Of a stretch of 64,000 nt of DNA, positions 53 through 28,122 are shown piece after piece (within the stretch, counting starts at the first letter, position 1; each line of letters starts with the position of its first letter). The stretch comes from Thermoproteota archaeon (lineage in GTDB: Archaea > Korarchaeota > Korarchaeia > Korarchaeales > Korarchaeaceae). Under the pieces are notes generated by a model that worked only from the letters and a program-made list of their open reading frames with translations, searched no databases and was not told where the DNA came from. The position numbers were made by a program, and so were the translations under genes. The stretch is from NCBI GenBank assembly GCA_026986575.1, contig JALSOH010000004.1, positions 186,001-250,000 on the forward strand, given 5' to 3'.

Positions 53-2386
53 TTGTCTAGACGAGAGCCCAGACTCAAGGAAAAGCACTGGTCTCCCGAT
101 ATGGAGCTCGAGATGCAGAAGGTGTGGGAGGAGGAGGACACTTATCGCTTCAATCCGGACTCTGATAGGCCTCTCTTCTCAATAGATACGCCCCCTCCCT
201 ACGCTAGCGGTAAGTGGCACATAGCTGCGGCCATCCATTATTCTCAGATCGACATGATCGCGAGGACCCAGAGGATGAGGGGTTACGAGGTCTACTTCCC
301 CTTCGGGGTGGACAGGAACGGCCTCCCGGTTGAGGTGGAGACTGAGAAGAGGTACGAGATCAAGATGTTCGAATATCCTAGAGAGGAGTTCCTCAGGCTG
401 TGTAGGGAGTTCTTGGATGAAGCTGAGCAGGACATCCTCTCGATAGTCAAGAGGCTGGGTATTAGCGCAGACACCAAGAACTACTTCCAGACTGATAGTG
501 AGAAGTGGAGGGCTGTGACTCAAGCCACCTTTATCGATGCCTGGAATAAGGGGTACATCTACGAGGACTACAGGCCGAACATATACTGCCCGAGGTGCAG
601 GACCACTCTAGCAGATGCGGAGGTCGAGTACAAGGAGCTCCCCACCAGACTCGTGTACCTCAAGTTCAAGGTGGAGGGGAGTGAAGAGGAGGTGGTCGTG
701 GCCACTACCAGGCCGGAGCTCCTCCCAGCATGTAAGGCGGTCATATACAATCCCGACGATGAGAGGTACAAGTGGCTGAGGGGGAAGAGGGTGGTCACGC
801 CCCTAGGGGATGCCATACCCGTTATGGAACACCCGTATGCCGATCCCGAGTTCGGGACCGGCTTGGTGATGATATGTTCCTATGGTGACAAGATGGATGT
901 CCAACTCTTCAGGGAGCTCGGTCTGGAGCCGAAAATAGTGGTCAATGAGGACGGCGCCCTCAATGAGAACGCTGGGGAGTACGCGGGCCTCACCATACAG
1001 GAGGCGAGGGAGAGGATAATAAGGGATTTAGAGCGGAAGGGGTTTGTTGAGAGGATCGAGACCATCATGCACAGGACTCCCGTGTGCTGGCGCTGCAAGA
1101 CTCCTCTGGAGATAGTCCCGATGAGGGAGTACTACCTAAAGCAGGTTGATCTGATTCATGAACTCGAGGAATACCTTGATGTGGTGAGATTCTACCCGGA
1201 GTGGGCGTCCAACTACTGGAGGGACTGGTTGAAGTCCGTGAGTTCCGACTGGCCCATATCCAGGAGGAGGTACTACGCCACGGAGATACCGGTATGGTAC
1301 TGCAAGAGCTGCGGAAAGCCCGTGTTACCGCCTCCCGGCAAGTACTACCAGCCTTGGAAGGAGGATCCGCCCTACGACAAGTGCCCGCACTGTGGTTCAA
1401 CGGCTGGCTTCGAGGGGGAGAAGAGGGTCTTCGATACGTGGATGGACTCCTCCATCTCGCCCCTAGTCTACAACGGATTCGGTTGGGACGACGAGTTCTT
1501 CAGTAAGCTAGGATCGAGCGATTTGAGGCCTCAGGGCAAGGACATAGTGAGAACTTGGCTCCATTACACCTTCCTGAGGGTGCATCAGGTGCTCGGGAAG
1601 CCAGCCTTCAAGCACGTCTGGATATCGGGGATGGGGCTGGATGCGAAAGGCAGGGCTATGCACAAGAGCTTGGGTAACATAATATACCCGTGGCCCTTGT
1701 TTGAGAAGTACGGGGCCGATGCTGTGAGGTTCTTCGGTGCGGCAGAGGCGCATCACGGTTCCGACTTCAGGATATCTGAGAGGAAGATAGAGGGCGCCTA
1801 TAAGTTCCTGCAGAAACTGTGGAACGTGGCCAGGTTCATCTCACAATTCGAGGAACCCAAGGGGATGCCTGAGCTGGAACCCTCTGATCTCTGGATACTG
1901 GGGGAGCTGAACAAGTCTATAAGGAGGGCCCTGTCGGGTTATGAGAGGTTCGACTTCTTTGACCCGGCTAACGAGGTCAGGATCTTCATCTGGGATGTGT
2001 TCGCCCCCCACTACATAGAGCTCGTCAAGGGAAGGGCCTACGGTGATTGTGTAGATGAAGGGAAGTCGGCGGCAGCGAGGTGGACCCTCCACTACGTCCT
2101 GAGGGCCGTACTTAGATTAGCGGCTCCCGTCATCCCCCACATCACTGACTACATATGGAGGAGCATCTACGGAGGAACGGTCCACAGGGAGCTCTTTCCC
2201 GAGGTAAGGGAGGAGTGGGACACGGAGTACTTGGAGCTCGGAAGGAAAGTGATGGAATTCAACAGCCTAGTCTGGAAGACCAAGAAAGAAAGGGGCATGA
2301 GGATGAAGGATCCGATAGAGATGAAGATCCCTGAGGACCTCAAGCCCTTCGAGGAGGATCTGAGAAAACTTCACAACATAAAGTAA
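53..2386 (+). CDS. valS: Valyl-tRNA synthetase (crenarchaeal-type, short form)
   Basis: Charges tRNA-Val with valine in the cytoplasm. The 777-residue protein is a class I synthetase: a HIGH-like element (KWHIAAAIHY, about residues 54-63) follows the PPPY strand, and the KMSKS-like element AMHKSLGN lies near residue 535. The CP1 editing region in between contains ATTRPELL. Four CxxC pairs (CPRC, CWRC, CKSC, CPHC) suggest two structural zincs. I first considered IleRS, but the length (IleRS is about 1000 aa), the WHIA...HYSQID block and the carboxyl end (EDLRKLHNIK) match the roughly 800-aa ValRS of Sulfolobus-type archaea as I remember it, so I call ValRS and consider it complete. Start is TTG at 53 with a GGAGGG ribosome-binding site about 5 nt upstream. 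It converges on the tRNA-Ser gene. Confidence 0.88.
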   Translation: MSRREPRLKEKHWSPDMELEMQKVWEEEDTYRFNPDSDRPLFSIDTPPPYASGKWHIAAAIHYSQIDMIARTQRMRGYEVYFPFGVDRNGLPVEVETEKRYEIKMFEYPREEFLRLCREFLDEAEQDILSIVKRLGISADTKNYFQTDSEKWRAVTQATFIDAWNKGYIYEDYRPNIYCPRCRTTLADAEVEYKELPTRLVYLKFKVEGSEEEVVVATTRPELLPACKAVIYNPDDERYKWLRGKRVVTPLGDAIPVMEHPYADPEFGTGLVMICSYGDKMDVQLFRELGLEPKIVVNEDGALNENAGEYAGLTIQEARERIIRDLERKGFVERIETIMHRTPVCWRCKTPLEIVPMREYYLKQVDLIHELEEYLDVVRFYPEWASNYWRDWLKSVSSDWPISRRRYYATEIPVWYCKSCGKPVLPPPGKYYQPWKEDPPYDKCPHCGSTAGFEGEKRVFDTWMDSSISPLVYNGFGWDDEFFSKLGSSDLRPQGKDIVRTWLHYTFLRVHQVLGKPAFKHVWISGMGLDAKGRAMHKSLGNIIYPWPLFEKYGADAVRFFGAAEAHHGSDFRISERKIEGAYKFLQKLWNVARFISQFEEPKGMPELEPSDLWILGELNKSIRRALSGYERFDFFDPANEVRIFIWDVFAPHYIELVKGRAYGDCVDEGKSAAARWTLHYVLRAVLRLAAPVIPHITDYIWRSIYGGTVHRELFPEVREEWDTEYLELGRKVMEFNSLVWKTKKERGMRMKDPIEMKIPEDLKPFEEDLRKLHNIK

Positions 2387-2387
2387 G

Positions 2388-2497
2388 TGGCGCCGGGGGT
2401 GGGATTCGAACCCACGAGGCCCGTGAGGGCCACCGGATCTCGAGTCCGGCCCCTTGCTTCGCCGGGCGCCTGGGCCCTCTGGCTAGGGTACCCCGGC
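2388..2497 (-). tRNA. tRNA-Ser (CGA) with probable D-loop intron, CCA encoded
   Basis: The acceptor stem GCCGGGG/CCCCGGC, T-arm GTGGG-TTCGAAT-CCCAC, anticodon stem CCGGA/TCCGG with loop CTCGAGA (anticodon CGA), and a long variable arm (GGCCC-TCAC-GGGCC) define a class II tRNA-Ser reading UCG. The 3' CCA is encoded at 2388-2390 of the complement. The segment between acceptor stem and anticodon stem is too long: if CCCT/AGGG is the D-stem, the D-loop is 30 nt instead of about 11-14. That leaves roughly 16-20 nt to be explained as a non-canonical intron inside the D-loop. A TATA-like CATTTATAG on the minus strand lies at 2531-2539. The exact splice sites cannot be set by eye. Confidence 0.9.
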
Positions 2498-2553
2498 ACT
2501 ACCCCGCCACTTTCTCCCTGATCTCTGGGGCTATAAATGTTGGGGGTGATAAG

Positions 2554-3312
2554 ATGGATGCTGCCCTCGTCTTAGGGACCGCTGGATCCGGTAAGACCAC
2601 CTTCACTGCGAGCTATTCGGAATGGTTAAGGAGGAGGTTCATGCCGCTCCGGAGTTGCACAGCCAACTTGGATCCGGGAGTGCTGAGCCTGCCGTACAAA
2701 CCCGATTACGATGTTAGGGAGCTGATCAGCGTACAAGATATAATGGGGAAGGAGATACTGGGTCCTAACGGCGCTCTGGTGAGGGCTGCGGAGATCATGG
2801 TGGCTAAGATGGGTGAGATAGTCGAATCCCTATGCTCCCTCAGCTGCGACCATTTAGTGATAGACACGCCCGGTCAAATGGAGATCTTCGCCTTCAGGCC
2901 CTTGGGGAGGGTGCTGTGTGAGAGGCTCTCTTCATGCCTAAATCTGGCTGCCGTCTTTTTGGGAGATCACGAGCCGGGAAGGGAGATGGAGGACATCGTC
3001 ACCTCGGCCCTGCTAGCCAAGATACTGGAACTGAAGCTTGGAGTGACTGTGATCCCCCTGCTCAACAAGATGGATATCTGGCGGGGCGAGGGAGTCGAGA
3101 AGGTATGGGAGAGGGTGCTGAGGGGGGAGGTGGATGGGCTCGATGCTGGCGAGGGTACCCTGTCGGACGCATTGCTGGAGCTCGTGAGGGCCGTTTCCTC
3201 TTTTAAATCACCGGTCAGGGTGGTACCCATCTCGGCTAGGGAGGGAATTAACTACCAAGAGGTTTTCGATCTTCTAAGCGAGGTATGGTGCTCTTGCGGA
3301 GATATGACCTGA
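2554..3312 (+). CDS. GPN-loop GTPase
   Basis: A 252-residue P-loop GTPase of the GPN family, whose eukaryotic members (Gpn1-3) help assemble and import RNA polymerase II; the archaeal role is unsettled. Visible motifs are the P-loop GTAGSGKTTF (residues 8-17), the family-defining GPN tripeptide at about residue 70 (GPNGAL), the switch II motif DTPGQ (about 104), and NKMD as the guanine-specificity motif. Length matches archaeal members such as PAB0955 (about 250 aa). The start is ATG at 2554 with the strong site GGGGGTGAT just upstream. The last 28 nt overlap the next gene, so the two are probably translationally coupled. Confidence 0.92.
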   Translation: MDAALVLGTAGSGKTTFTASYSEWLRRRFMPLRSCTANLDPGVLSLPYKPDYDVRELISVQDIMGKEILGPNGALVRAAEIMVAKMGEIVESLCSLSCDHLVIDTPGQMEIFAFRPLGRVLCERLSSCLNLAAVFLGDHEPGREMEDIVTSALLAKILELKLGVTVIPLLNKMDIWRGEGVEKVWERVLRGEVDGLDAGEGTLSDALLELVRAVSSFKSPVRVVPISAREGINYQEVFDLLSEVWCSCGDMT

Positions 3313-26029: not shown

Positions 26030-26821
26030 TTGCCTATAAAGGAGGGCGACACTGCCCTCCTAGTTGTTTACAGCAAGAAGGGAAGAGCCAAGAAGTTCCT
26101 AGTTAGGATCAAGGAAGGTAAGAGGGTTCACACCCATAAAGGATATGTAGATCTCTCCCTACTGATCGGGAAGGATTGGGGATCGGTTGTTCAAACTAAT
26201 AAGGGCATTCCAGTCGAGGTGCACAGGCCAACACTATCGGATATCATCGAGAAGCTAGGCAGAGCCACCCAGATAATATATCCCAAGGACTCGGGGTTCA
26301 TCCTACTGAAATCAGGGATCAAGCCAGGAGATAAGGTGGTCGAGATAGGAACGGGATCCGGAGCTCTGACCATAGTGCTCGCCACATTTCTGGGTCCCGA
26401 GGGGAAGGTGTATAGCTACGATGTTAGGGAGTCGTCACTCAAGATGGCGGAGAGGAATTTGAAGGCCCTGCAACTGACCAACGTCGTCCTGAAACTGAAG
26501 GACGCGAAGCAAGGGATAGATGAGGAGGACGTGGATGCGGTGTTCGTAGATATACCCGATCCTTGGGAACTCCTCCCTATGATCCACGAGAGGCTGAAGC
26601 CCAACGGCATCTTCATAGCCTTCGTTCCCTCCTGTGAACAGATAAGCAAAACCGTAGTGAGGGCTAGGGAAGTAGGGTTCAGCATGGTGGAGGTTCACGA
26701 GATATTGGATAGGGAGTATGAAAGCGATGAGAGGAGGACCAGGCCCCATCCTAGAATGATAGCGCACACGGGCTTCATAATAATCGGTAGGAAGATTAAT
26801 CCGCCCTCCTCCTCATCCTGA
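26030..26821 (+). CDS. trmI: tRNA (adenine-N1)-methyltransferase TrmI
   Basis: Makes m1A57/58 in the T-loop of tRNA, a thermostability modification. The 263-residue protein has an N-terminal OB-like domain and a class I methyltransferase core: VVEIGTGSGALTIVLA (motif I, about 103), VYSYDVRESSLKMAERNL (motif II), and AVFVDIPDPWEL (motif IV, about 169). TTG at 26030 follows a strong GGAGGTG. The 3' end overlaps the convergent zinc-ribbon gene by 26 nt. Low complexity SSSS ends the protein. Confidence 0.93.
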   Translation: MPIKEGDTALLVVYSKKGRAKKFLVRIKEGKRVHTHKGYVDLSLLIGKDWGSVVQTNKGIPVEVHRPTLSDIIEKLGRATQIIYPKDSGFILLKSGIKPGDKVVEIGTGSGALTIVLATFLGPEGKVYSYDVRESSLKMAERNLKALQLTNVVLKLKDAKQGIDEEDVDAVFVDIPDPWELLPMIHERLKPNGIFIAFVPSCEQISKTVVRAREVGFSMVEVHEILDREYESDERRTRPHPRMIAHTGFIIIGRKINPPSSSS

Positions 26822-27128
26822 ACACTATCTCGTACTCCCCTGGCTCCAGCTCCGCGACAGCCACCTCCTCGGTGATCGTCCTAGAGAGATCGATTTCCCA
26901 TTCTCCCTCCGATACTTTCCTCAGGAAGGCCTCCTCTATCAGTAATGGGACCCCGCCTTCAGGGGCCTCGCGTTCGACCTCCCCTTCAGGCTCTTCGCTA
27001 ACCCTGTAGACGACGAACTCCAGATCTCTCGAACCGCAGGATGGGCAGATCTCTGGAAGGGTCTCATCCGCCCCCTCCAAATCCTTCCGAAACCCGCAGG
27101 ACCTGCAAACTAACACTACCTTCAACAA
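26796..27128 (-). CDS. Zinc-ribbon protein, OapC/ArvC-like
   Basis: A 110-residue protein with an N-terminal zinc ribbon (VCRSCGFRKD...EICPSCGSRDLEF: two CxxC pairs, about residues 8-34) and a carboxyl part EWEIDLSRTITEEVAVAELEPGEYEIVF that resembles the tail of archaeal COG3364 zinc-ribbon proteins. In euryarchaea that family is linked to a small GTPase and a DUF2073 protein (OapC/ArvC naming, from memory). Here it is last in the same kind of trio, overlapping the upstream gene by 7 nt. Identification is by combined size, ribbon, tail and context. Confidence 0.6.
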   Translation of the reverse strand: MLKVVLVCRSCGFRKDLEGADETLPEICPSCGSRDLEFVVYRVSEEPEGEVEREAPEGGVPLLIEEAFLRKVSEGEWEIDLSRTITEEVAVAELEPGEYEIVFRMRRRAD

Positions 27129-27394
27129 GGTCCTACACCCGAAATGAGGACGGAGCCCCTCCTCTTAGACAGCCTTACCCCCCCAGGGTGAATGAGATAA
27201 GGACCCCCCTCAGAGAGCTTCTCTATCTCCATCCCAGATGATTCGCCCTCATGTCTAGAGAGTAGGGATTCTAGGGCAGAGACTACCGCCTTAGGATCTA
27301 TAGTCTTCGTTATGACGACACCTCCCTCCATCAAGAGGCTGACCACTTCCTCAACACTATCCTCAGAGAGTTCCTCTAGGAACAGGATGTTCAT
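27122..27394 (-). CDS. Small protein, DUF2073/OapB-like
   Basis: A 90-residue protein with no catalytic motif visible. The order EEVVSLLMEGGVVITKTID, then SSGMEIEKLSE and a final SVLISGVGPC follows the pattern I associate with DUF2073 (helix, GG turn, GIEIE strand, and a closing V-I-G-P strand). DUF2073 proteins are usually slightly longer (about 110 aa), so this is a short or divergent member. It overlaps the GTPase stop by 4 nt and the zinc-ribbon gene by 7 nt; tight coupling suggests one complex. Confidence 0.55.
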   Translation of the reverse strand: MNILFLEELSEDSVEEVVSLLMEGGVVITKTIDPKAVVSALESLLSRHEGESSGMEIEKLSEGGPYLIHPGGVRLSKRRGSVLISGVGPC

Positions 27395-28047
27395 CCACTG
27401 GCTACCTCCGCTATGGCCTCATAGAGGCTCTCAATATTGTCTCCCCTTAAAGCCGATATCTTCACGACCAGATCCTCCGAGAAGGCCTTCTCCACCCTGT
27501 TAGGCCTGGAATACGGGAGGTCGATCTTATTAGCCACCACTATGTACGGTATCCCCCTAGCCTTAAGATTTCCAGCTATCACCCAGTTAACTTGCGATGT
27601 TGGATCCTTGGTGGAGTCCAACACTATCAAGGCCACATCAACCCTCTCCATCGACTTTATGGCCTCAACGACTCCCTTAGCCGCCTCAGCAGCTCTCTCC
27701 AGAGCTTCCTCTTTCTTAAAACCGTATCTAAGGAAACTCCTGTAAGTGACCCTCATCGCTATTCCTGGCGTATCAACGACATCCATCACCAAGGAAGAAC
27801 CATTTCTTAACTTGAGGGAGACGTTCTCCATCACGCTGACGGTTCTGGTCTCGTGAGGCACTCTGCTCACGGTCCCGAGCTTCTCCCCCACGAAGTCCAT
27901 ACAGATCTTATTGGCTAGAGTTGTCTTCCCAGAGTTGACAGGGCCATAAATACCCAGTATTATCCTCTTCCTCCTACGGAACAGCCTAGAAAATATCCTA
28001 GAAAGGAATCCGCCACTCTGCTTCGGCTCGACGAGTCTGGCCAGCAT
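27391..28047 (-). CDS. Era-like small GTPase, OapA/ArvA-like
   Basis: A 218-residue TRAFAC GTPase: G1 GPVNSGKTTLANK (about 36-48), G2 Thr in ETRTVSV, G3 DTPGIA (about 92), G4 NKIDLP (about 172), G5 ISAL (about 192). Unlike bacterial Era it has no KH domain. The N-terminal 30 residues are basic and amphipathic (SGGFLSRIFSRLFRRRKR), suitable for lying on a membrane. Euryarchaeal relatives (OapA/ArvA) sit with DUF2073 and zinc-ribbon genes and have been connected to extracellular vesicle formation in Haloferax; applying that here is inference. Confidence 0.7.
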   Translation of the reverse strand: MLARLVEPKQSGGFLSRIFSRLFRRRKRIILGIYGPVNSGKTTLANKICMDFVGEKLGTVSRVPHETRTVSVMENVSLKLRNGSSLVMDVVDTPGIAMRVTYRSFLRYGFKKEEALERAAEAAKGVVEAIKSMERVDVALIVLDSTKDPTSQVNWVIAGNLKARGIPYIVVANKIDLPYSRPNRVEKAFSEDLVVKISALRGDNIESLYEAIAEVASG

Positions 28048-28122
28048 TTTCCCATATAAACTGGTTCCATTGCCGTTATAAAGGGCCTAACTGGGATGTA
28101 ATGCGCCATAAATATCTAACTC

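Follow-up and report, generated by a model that had tools for sequence, protein, structure and literature searches.

Whether three overlapping genes on the minus strand of a korarchaeal genome represent the ArvABC (OapABC) vesicle-forming system, and whether that system requires all three of its members, are the questions raised by the locus described here. Haloferax strains lacking arvA or arvB were reported to produce about 3-fold fewer vesicles, whereas overexpression of arvA raised vesicle numbers 3.5-fold and deletion of arvC 1.65-fold; ArvA was found in the vesicles, and ArvB was described as having a SepF-like fold (Mills et al. 2024, PMC10927574). In that paper, ArvA is presented as the first GTPase shown to drive archaeal vesicle formation, and ArvB and ArvC are proposed to act as exchange factor and GTPase activator, respectively. 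The same study counts 1,666 archaea with ArvA, spread over 14 phyla; 8 of them are Korarchaeota, out of 970 Thermoproteota, and many archaea lack the protein. Of the genomes with ArvA, about 95% also have ArvB and about 91% have ArvC (PMC10927574). The first-pass annotation of this locus had proposed an ArvABC trio outside Euryarchaeota. The identity is upheld below by profiles, tree and fold; the novelty is not, as the presence of ArvA in Korarchaeota, outside Euryarchaeota, is already known. What appear to be new are the short form of ArvB found in Korarchaeota, which lacks the LGGK segment, and its repeated loss, for neither of which a report was found in the searchable literature, the supplementary tables of PMC10927574 aside.

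Organisation of the locus

The window analysed comprises 64,000 nucleotides (positions 186,001 to 250,000 of contig JALSOH010000004.1) of a 1.91 Mb korarchaeal assembly. Reading of its open reading frames placed on the minus strand a GTPase of 218 aa with an ATG start (27391..28047), a 90-aa protein, also with an ATG start (27122..27394), and a zinc-ribbon protein of 110 aa with a TTG start (26796..27128). The overlaps are 4 nt between the first and second genes and 7 nt between the second and third, which bears out the overlaps given at first pass. A candidate TATA element (TTTATAAC; 28075..28082, minus strand), proposed from reading of the sequence, is situated ~32 nt 5' of the arvA ATG.

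Close relatives retain the gene arrangement, the two overlaps and the TTG codon with which the third gene begins. Relatives whose GTPases are 92-99% identical to that of the window have the same lengths, starts and overlaps, and their third protein differs by a few residues. Where dS was measurable, dN/dS was 0.006-0.02 for arvA, 0.03-0.19 for arvB and 0.09-0.21 for arvC. Together, the conserved layout, starts and overlaps and the low dN/dS values indicate that all three are genuine genes under purifying selection.

Upstream of the trio, on the same strand, is a beta-CASP metallo-RNase (identified by Pfam), and downstream is a convergent methyltransferase, overlapping by 26 nt, which from its sequence features we take to be of the TrmI type. 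The RNase and the TrmI-like methyltransferase border the locus across the family, and further neighbours are MCM and Hel308; the nature of these four genes suggests no membrane role.

Identity of the GTPase

All of the G1-G5 motifs noted earlier were recovered on the minus strand: the G1/P-loop GPVNSGKT (residues 35-42; 27922..27945), the switch-I HETR within PHETR (residues 65-68; 27844..27855), the G3 motif DTPG (residues 92-95; 27763..27774), the G4 motif NKID (residues 173-176; 27520..27531) and the G5 motif SAL (residues 198-200; 27448..27456). HETR is invariant in 16 Korarchaeal and DPANN ArvA sequences, as are, in 16 ArvA, G35, N38, G40 and K41 of the P-loop, the D, P and G of G3, the N, K and D of G4, and the S and A of G5. 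The protein consists of a single G domain of less than 250 aa without a KH domain, as is characteristic of ArvA (OapA); it stops at the G domain, so that the C-terminal KH domain that distinguishes Era is absent. Family databases returned generic small-GTPase matches only (MMR_HSR1, 2.1e-13), the best long NCBIfam matches being Der, HydF and Era, and a fold search gave Era and Der as the closest solved structures to the G domain.

Phylogenetic analysis was performed with 13 Korarchaeal and 10 DPANN ArvA against 15 other GTPases, which comprised FeoB, NOG1, HflX, YchF, RbgA-like, Arf-like and other small GTPases of Korarchaeota and Era, Der, MnmE and HflX of E. coli. The DPANN sequences were mostly not picked by GTPase similarity: nine adjoin a gene scoring above the Pfam OapB cut-off, and one (locus L035) came from a search with the window GTPase. 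The reference ArvA in the tree are all from DPANN, a plasmid search for haloarchaeal ArvA having given no match. A branch supported at 96/99 separated all ArvA from the other GTPases, and the window protein is 52% identical to a Micrarchaeota ArvA. The phylogeny, which the first-pass annotation had named as a check, therefore groups the GTPase with ArvA and not with HflX or Era, and indicates that it is an ArvA, distinct from the Era, Der, HflX, MnmE, FeoB and Arf-like GTPases. Of the 29 genomes surveyed from the phylum, 22 have one copy of ArvA; in three genomes of at least 90% completeness and low contamination, no ArvA was detected.

Two further GTPase genes were observed during this survey. 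In the Micrarchaeota-group locus L063 (G098:C7, ~2106-3146, minus strand), an intein-like insert seemingly breaks arvA at its P-loop, the frame ending ...DGNHTFTTWDGLIVHN ahead of TSLANRISMD. The window's own genome also encodes an Arf-like GTPase (L095; G000:C9:48113-48433) with the motif GLDGAGKTT and a long C-terminal extension, ~308 aa in open frame.

Predicted N-terminal helix of ArvA

A basic amphipathic N-terminus, likened at first pass to the membrane-inserting helices of Arf and Sar, appears to be present, albeit modest. The AF2 model places a helix at residues 14-22 (27982..28008, minus strand), with the basic stretch continuing to residue 28, but with pLDDT <50 over residues 1-25. 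The segment LSRIFSRLFRR has a hydrophobic moment of 1.03, a value as high being found in 2.2% of shuffles (p 0.022), and in many ArvA homologues the N-terminal moment is no greater than in shuffles. The comparison with Arf and Sar itself received no backing from the fold, the nearest solved structures being Era and the helix being of low confidence.

As a separate observation, the N-terminal moment was 0.56-0.62 at the ArvB-less loci L010, L011, L013 and L014, versus 0.88-1.05 in ArvB-bearing congeners; with two independent losses only, a tie between the weaker moment and the absence of ArvB is at most suggestive.

Identity of the zinc-ribbon protein

The two CxxC pairs of the third protein, C8-x2-C11 and C28-x2-C31 (27036..27107, minus strand), were confirmed as a zinc ribbon, invariant in 14 homologues. 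In the window, residues 8-101 match OapC (PF09845/DUF2072) with 15.8 bits, under the 23-bit Pfam cut-off, which is passed by the homologues in genomes G026 (33.8), G025 (about 25) and G003 (31.5). Profile-profile comparison of the family with DPANN OapC gave 96.5% and E=7.5e-10, and the window protein has, in addition to the ribbon, the C-terminal domain around the motif G-x-[YFW]-E/L-[IL]-[DN]. An OapC score above the cut-off is not sufficient by itself to diagnose ArvC, since proteins of G001, G002 and G005 also reach it and were rejected as generic zinc ribbons, matching over the ribbon half only and occurring in genomes without ArvA; full-length match and gene order are decisive. In every locus read through, the gene directly follows arvA or arvB. 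On these grounds, the zinc-ribbon protein is identified as ArvC.

Identity of the 90-aa protein

The 90-aa gene is immediately downstream of arvA, in the position of arvB. Pfam and NCBIfam searches yielded no OapB (PF09846/DUF2073) match, the Pfam gathering score not being reached, and no SepF (PF04472) match was obtained in Pfam. Using hhalign, the family alignment matched DPANN/G003 OapB across most of its length (82%, E=1e-5); significance was attained with the eight-sequence family alignment and not with the four closest B sequences alone. Genome G003 is a distant member of the same phylum, in which the gene behind arvA is a Pfam OapB above the cut-off (9e-22, 77 bits), and an HMM built from the Korarchaeal-family 90-aa proteins alone finds this gene with E=3.7e-5. 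In G026 and G025 the best genome-wide OapB match is again the gene behind arvA, at values (0.0025 and 0.054, respectively) that are both below the cut-off.

The AF2 model of the protein (pLDDT 87.7) has the topology beta-alpha-beta-alpha-beta4. All ten top PDB matches in a fold search were SepF, with E values of 0.006-0.08 that are singly weak and together consistent, and IF3-C domains were among the weaker matches, below SepF. The family hhalign result, the HMM match to G003 OapB, the matches in G026 and G025 and the SepF-like model together identify the 90-aa protein as a diverged form of ArvB, and the link to DUF2073 that the first-pass annotation had asked for was thereby found in both profile and structure. 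Korarchaeal ArvB falls ~25-35 residues short of the length of DPANN OapB, and in the alignment the LGGK part (LIKxLGGKxx before GLTVVGPS) is missing from all B proteins of the Korarchaeal family. True SepF is encoded by a separate gene in 27 of the 29 genomes, including that of the window.

At locus L057 (G106:C55), an FtsZ-like ORF (257-1354, minus strand) is found directly 3' of arvA-arvB, which is of note given that SepF, whose fold ArvB shares, anchors FtsZ.

Loss of ArvB in relatives

Six genomes of the window's genus have no ArvB: G009 (Ca. Korarchaeum cryptofilum), G010, G013, G018, G022 and G023. Their gene order is beta-CASP, arvA, arvC, trmI, with an arvA-arvC gap of -4 to +9 nt and no gene between, and an HMM search did not find ArvB elsewhere in these six. 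As G009 is a single-contig chromosome, an assembly gap does not account for the absence. Trees of the beta-CASP and TrmI flanks require two changes, and not one of 200 bootstrap trees permits a single change. Given these trees, and because DPANN and the family's other genera have ArvB, the simplest reading is that ArvB was lost at least twice, in the K. cryptofilum group and in G018, while ArvA and ArvC were kept. The forms of ArvB grade from the full-length OapB of DPANN and G003, through the short form seen in the window and in most members of its family, to complete absence. Its loss with retention of ArvA and ArvC suggests that ArvB is dispensable, and argues against an obligatory exchange-factor role in the Korarchaeal lineage, unless ArvB has been replaced.

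Damaged copies of arvB were also seen. At L019 (G006:C60), the arvB ORF (2157-2399, reverse complement) is interrupted by an in-frame stop (IAPG*VVLKK) at a position that reads E in the near-identical copy of G007; the stop represents either recent decay or a sequence error. In the Micrarchaeota locus L035 (2100-2420; ArvA 52% identical), ArvC is present and ArvB is a stop-broken remnant between A and C that reads MDINIEFVASSALEPLGSDERLE*IMMLGGKLSGLTVIGPSKLVKKL, seemingly another decaying arvB. Convergent changes of ArvA in the ArvB-less genomes were limited to one column exclusive to both lineages (residue 138) and one K-to-R change (131), and are not interpretable.

Proposed mechanism and alternative explanations

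The trio is almost certainly homologous to ArvABC. We further consider it fairly probable that it is a vertically inherited, diverged ArvABC operon of a korarchaeote, most likely working as proposed for Haloferax ArvA, that is, as a membrane switch. In its GTP state, ArvA would bind the inner membrane face through the basic amphipathic N-terminus and, once bound, may help curve the membrane into buds. ArvC, which is always alongside ArvA, would be a zinc-ribbon regulator (the off-switch in Haloferax), and ArvB may be a SepF-like scaffold that boosts or positions the GTPase and, having been lost at least twice, would be optional here. We infer membrane binding, vesicle formation and the roles of B and C in Korarchaeota by analogy. 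No ESCRT-III was detected in the 29 Korarchaeal genomes by a search of limited sensitivity, in which the Sulfolobus control was found but under the curated cut-off, and this agrees with PMC8178401; another budding system is therefore plausible. We tentatively suggest that ArvA and ArvC alone might constitute a working GTPase budding module in Korarchaeota, seemingly without ESCRT-III, with ArvB as an optional adaptor.

The main rival explanation accepts descent from ArvABC and holds that the trio is, perhaps ancestrally, an Era-like module for ribosome or RNA work, the zinc ribbon and the IF3-C/SepF-like protein being RNA-binding partners and the vesicle effects in Haloferax indirect. The fold and NCBIfam matches of ArvA to Era, Der and HydF, the IF3-C domains among the weaker matches of ArvB and the family-wide bordering of the locus by an RNase and a TrmI-like methyltransferase are in line with it. 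However, no KH or other known RNA-binding domain is present, the SepF matches outscore IF3, and many archaea do without ArvA, unlike a core ribosome factor; moreover, Mills et al. place Haloferax ArvA in vesicles and report more vesiculation upon its overexpression (PMC10927574). We regard an RNA or ribosome role as unlikely, while acknowledging it as the main rival.

The other two explanations were rejected. The 90-aa gene could be a SepF paralogue recruited beside arvA-arvC, not ArvB, given that its AF2 model is closest to SepF and that the family HMM also matches true SepF weakly (E=0.012-0.024), but that HMM matches G003 OapB several hundred-fold better, and true SepF has its own gene, which led us to dismiss this origin as highly improbable; the gene also occupies the exact slot of ArvB, which is itself SepF-like in the published account (PMC10927574). 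An unrelated convergence of a generic Era-type GTPase, a small ORF present by chance and a zinc ribbon of generic type would leave unexplained the gene order common to DPANN and G003 (in G003, both B and C score above the Pfam cut-offs), as well as the GTPase tree, the profile-profile matches of B and C and the purifying selection. Although Pfam finds only generic GTPase and weak zinc-ribbon matches in the window proteins, and generic ribbons elsewhere pass the OapC cut-off, convergence is refuted by the G003 Pfam matches, the profile-profile matches and the tree, and we give it next to no credence.

Regarded as a diverged ArvABC operon, the trio extends the complete set, through Korarchaeota, to the TACK side of Archaea. 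The partner roles assigned so far, exchange factor for ArvB and GTPase activator for ArvC, are guesses, for which Korarchaeota offer a natural test: ArvB was eroded and deleted at least twice with the flanks intact, whereas selection on ArvA remained very strong and ArvC was retained. If ArvA and ArvC do suffice, ArvB could not have the essential exchange-factor role put forward in Haloferax, and Ca. Korarchaeum cryptofilum would amount to an ArvB deletion made by nature. The main value of Korarchaeota is that they supply natural ArvB-less genomes.

Comparison with known systems

The ribosome-assembly GTPases Era and Der share with window ArvA the G-domain fold and the style of motifs, whereas ArvA has a single G domain without KH and belongs to a separate clade. 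SepF (PF04472), the archaeal membrane anchor of FtsZ, shares its fold with the 90-aa protein, which differs in having no N-terminal membrane-binding extension; the true SepF of this genome is encoded separately at C4:109950-110183.

ArvABC of Haloferax volcanii (OapABC; HVO_3014/3013/3012; PMC10927574) resembles the window trio in its A-B-C order, in a GTPase of <250 aa without KH, in the SepF-like fold of B, in the zinc ribbon of C and, apparently, in the N-terminal amphipathic stretch. In contrast, B of the window is 90 aa long, lacks the LGGK segment and is below Pfam detection, C is under the Pfam cut-off, B is gone in six genomes of the genus, and a vesicle role of the Korarchaeal set is putative.

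In the DPANN (Micrarchaeota-group) loci L054-L062 and L035, ArvA is 47-52% identical over its full length, the order is the same in most, and ArvC is similar throughout. They differ from the window in an OapB of 114-126 aa that has the LLGGKxxGLTVVGPS motif, and in an ArvC with a longer middle segment.
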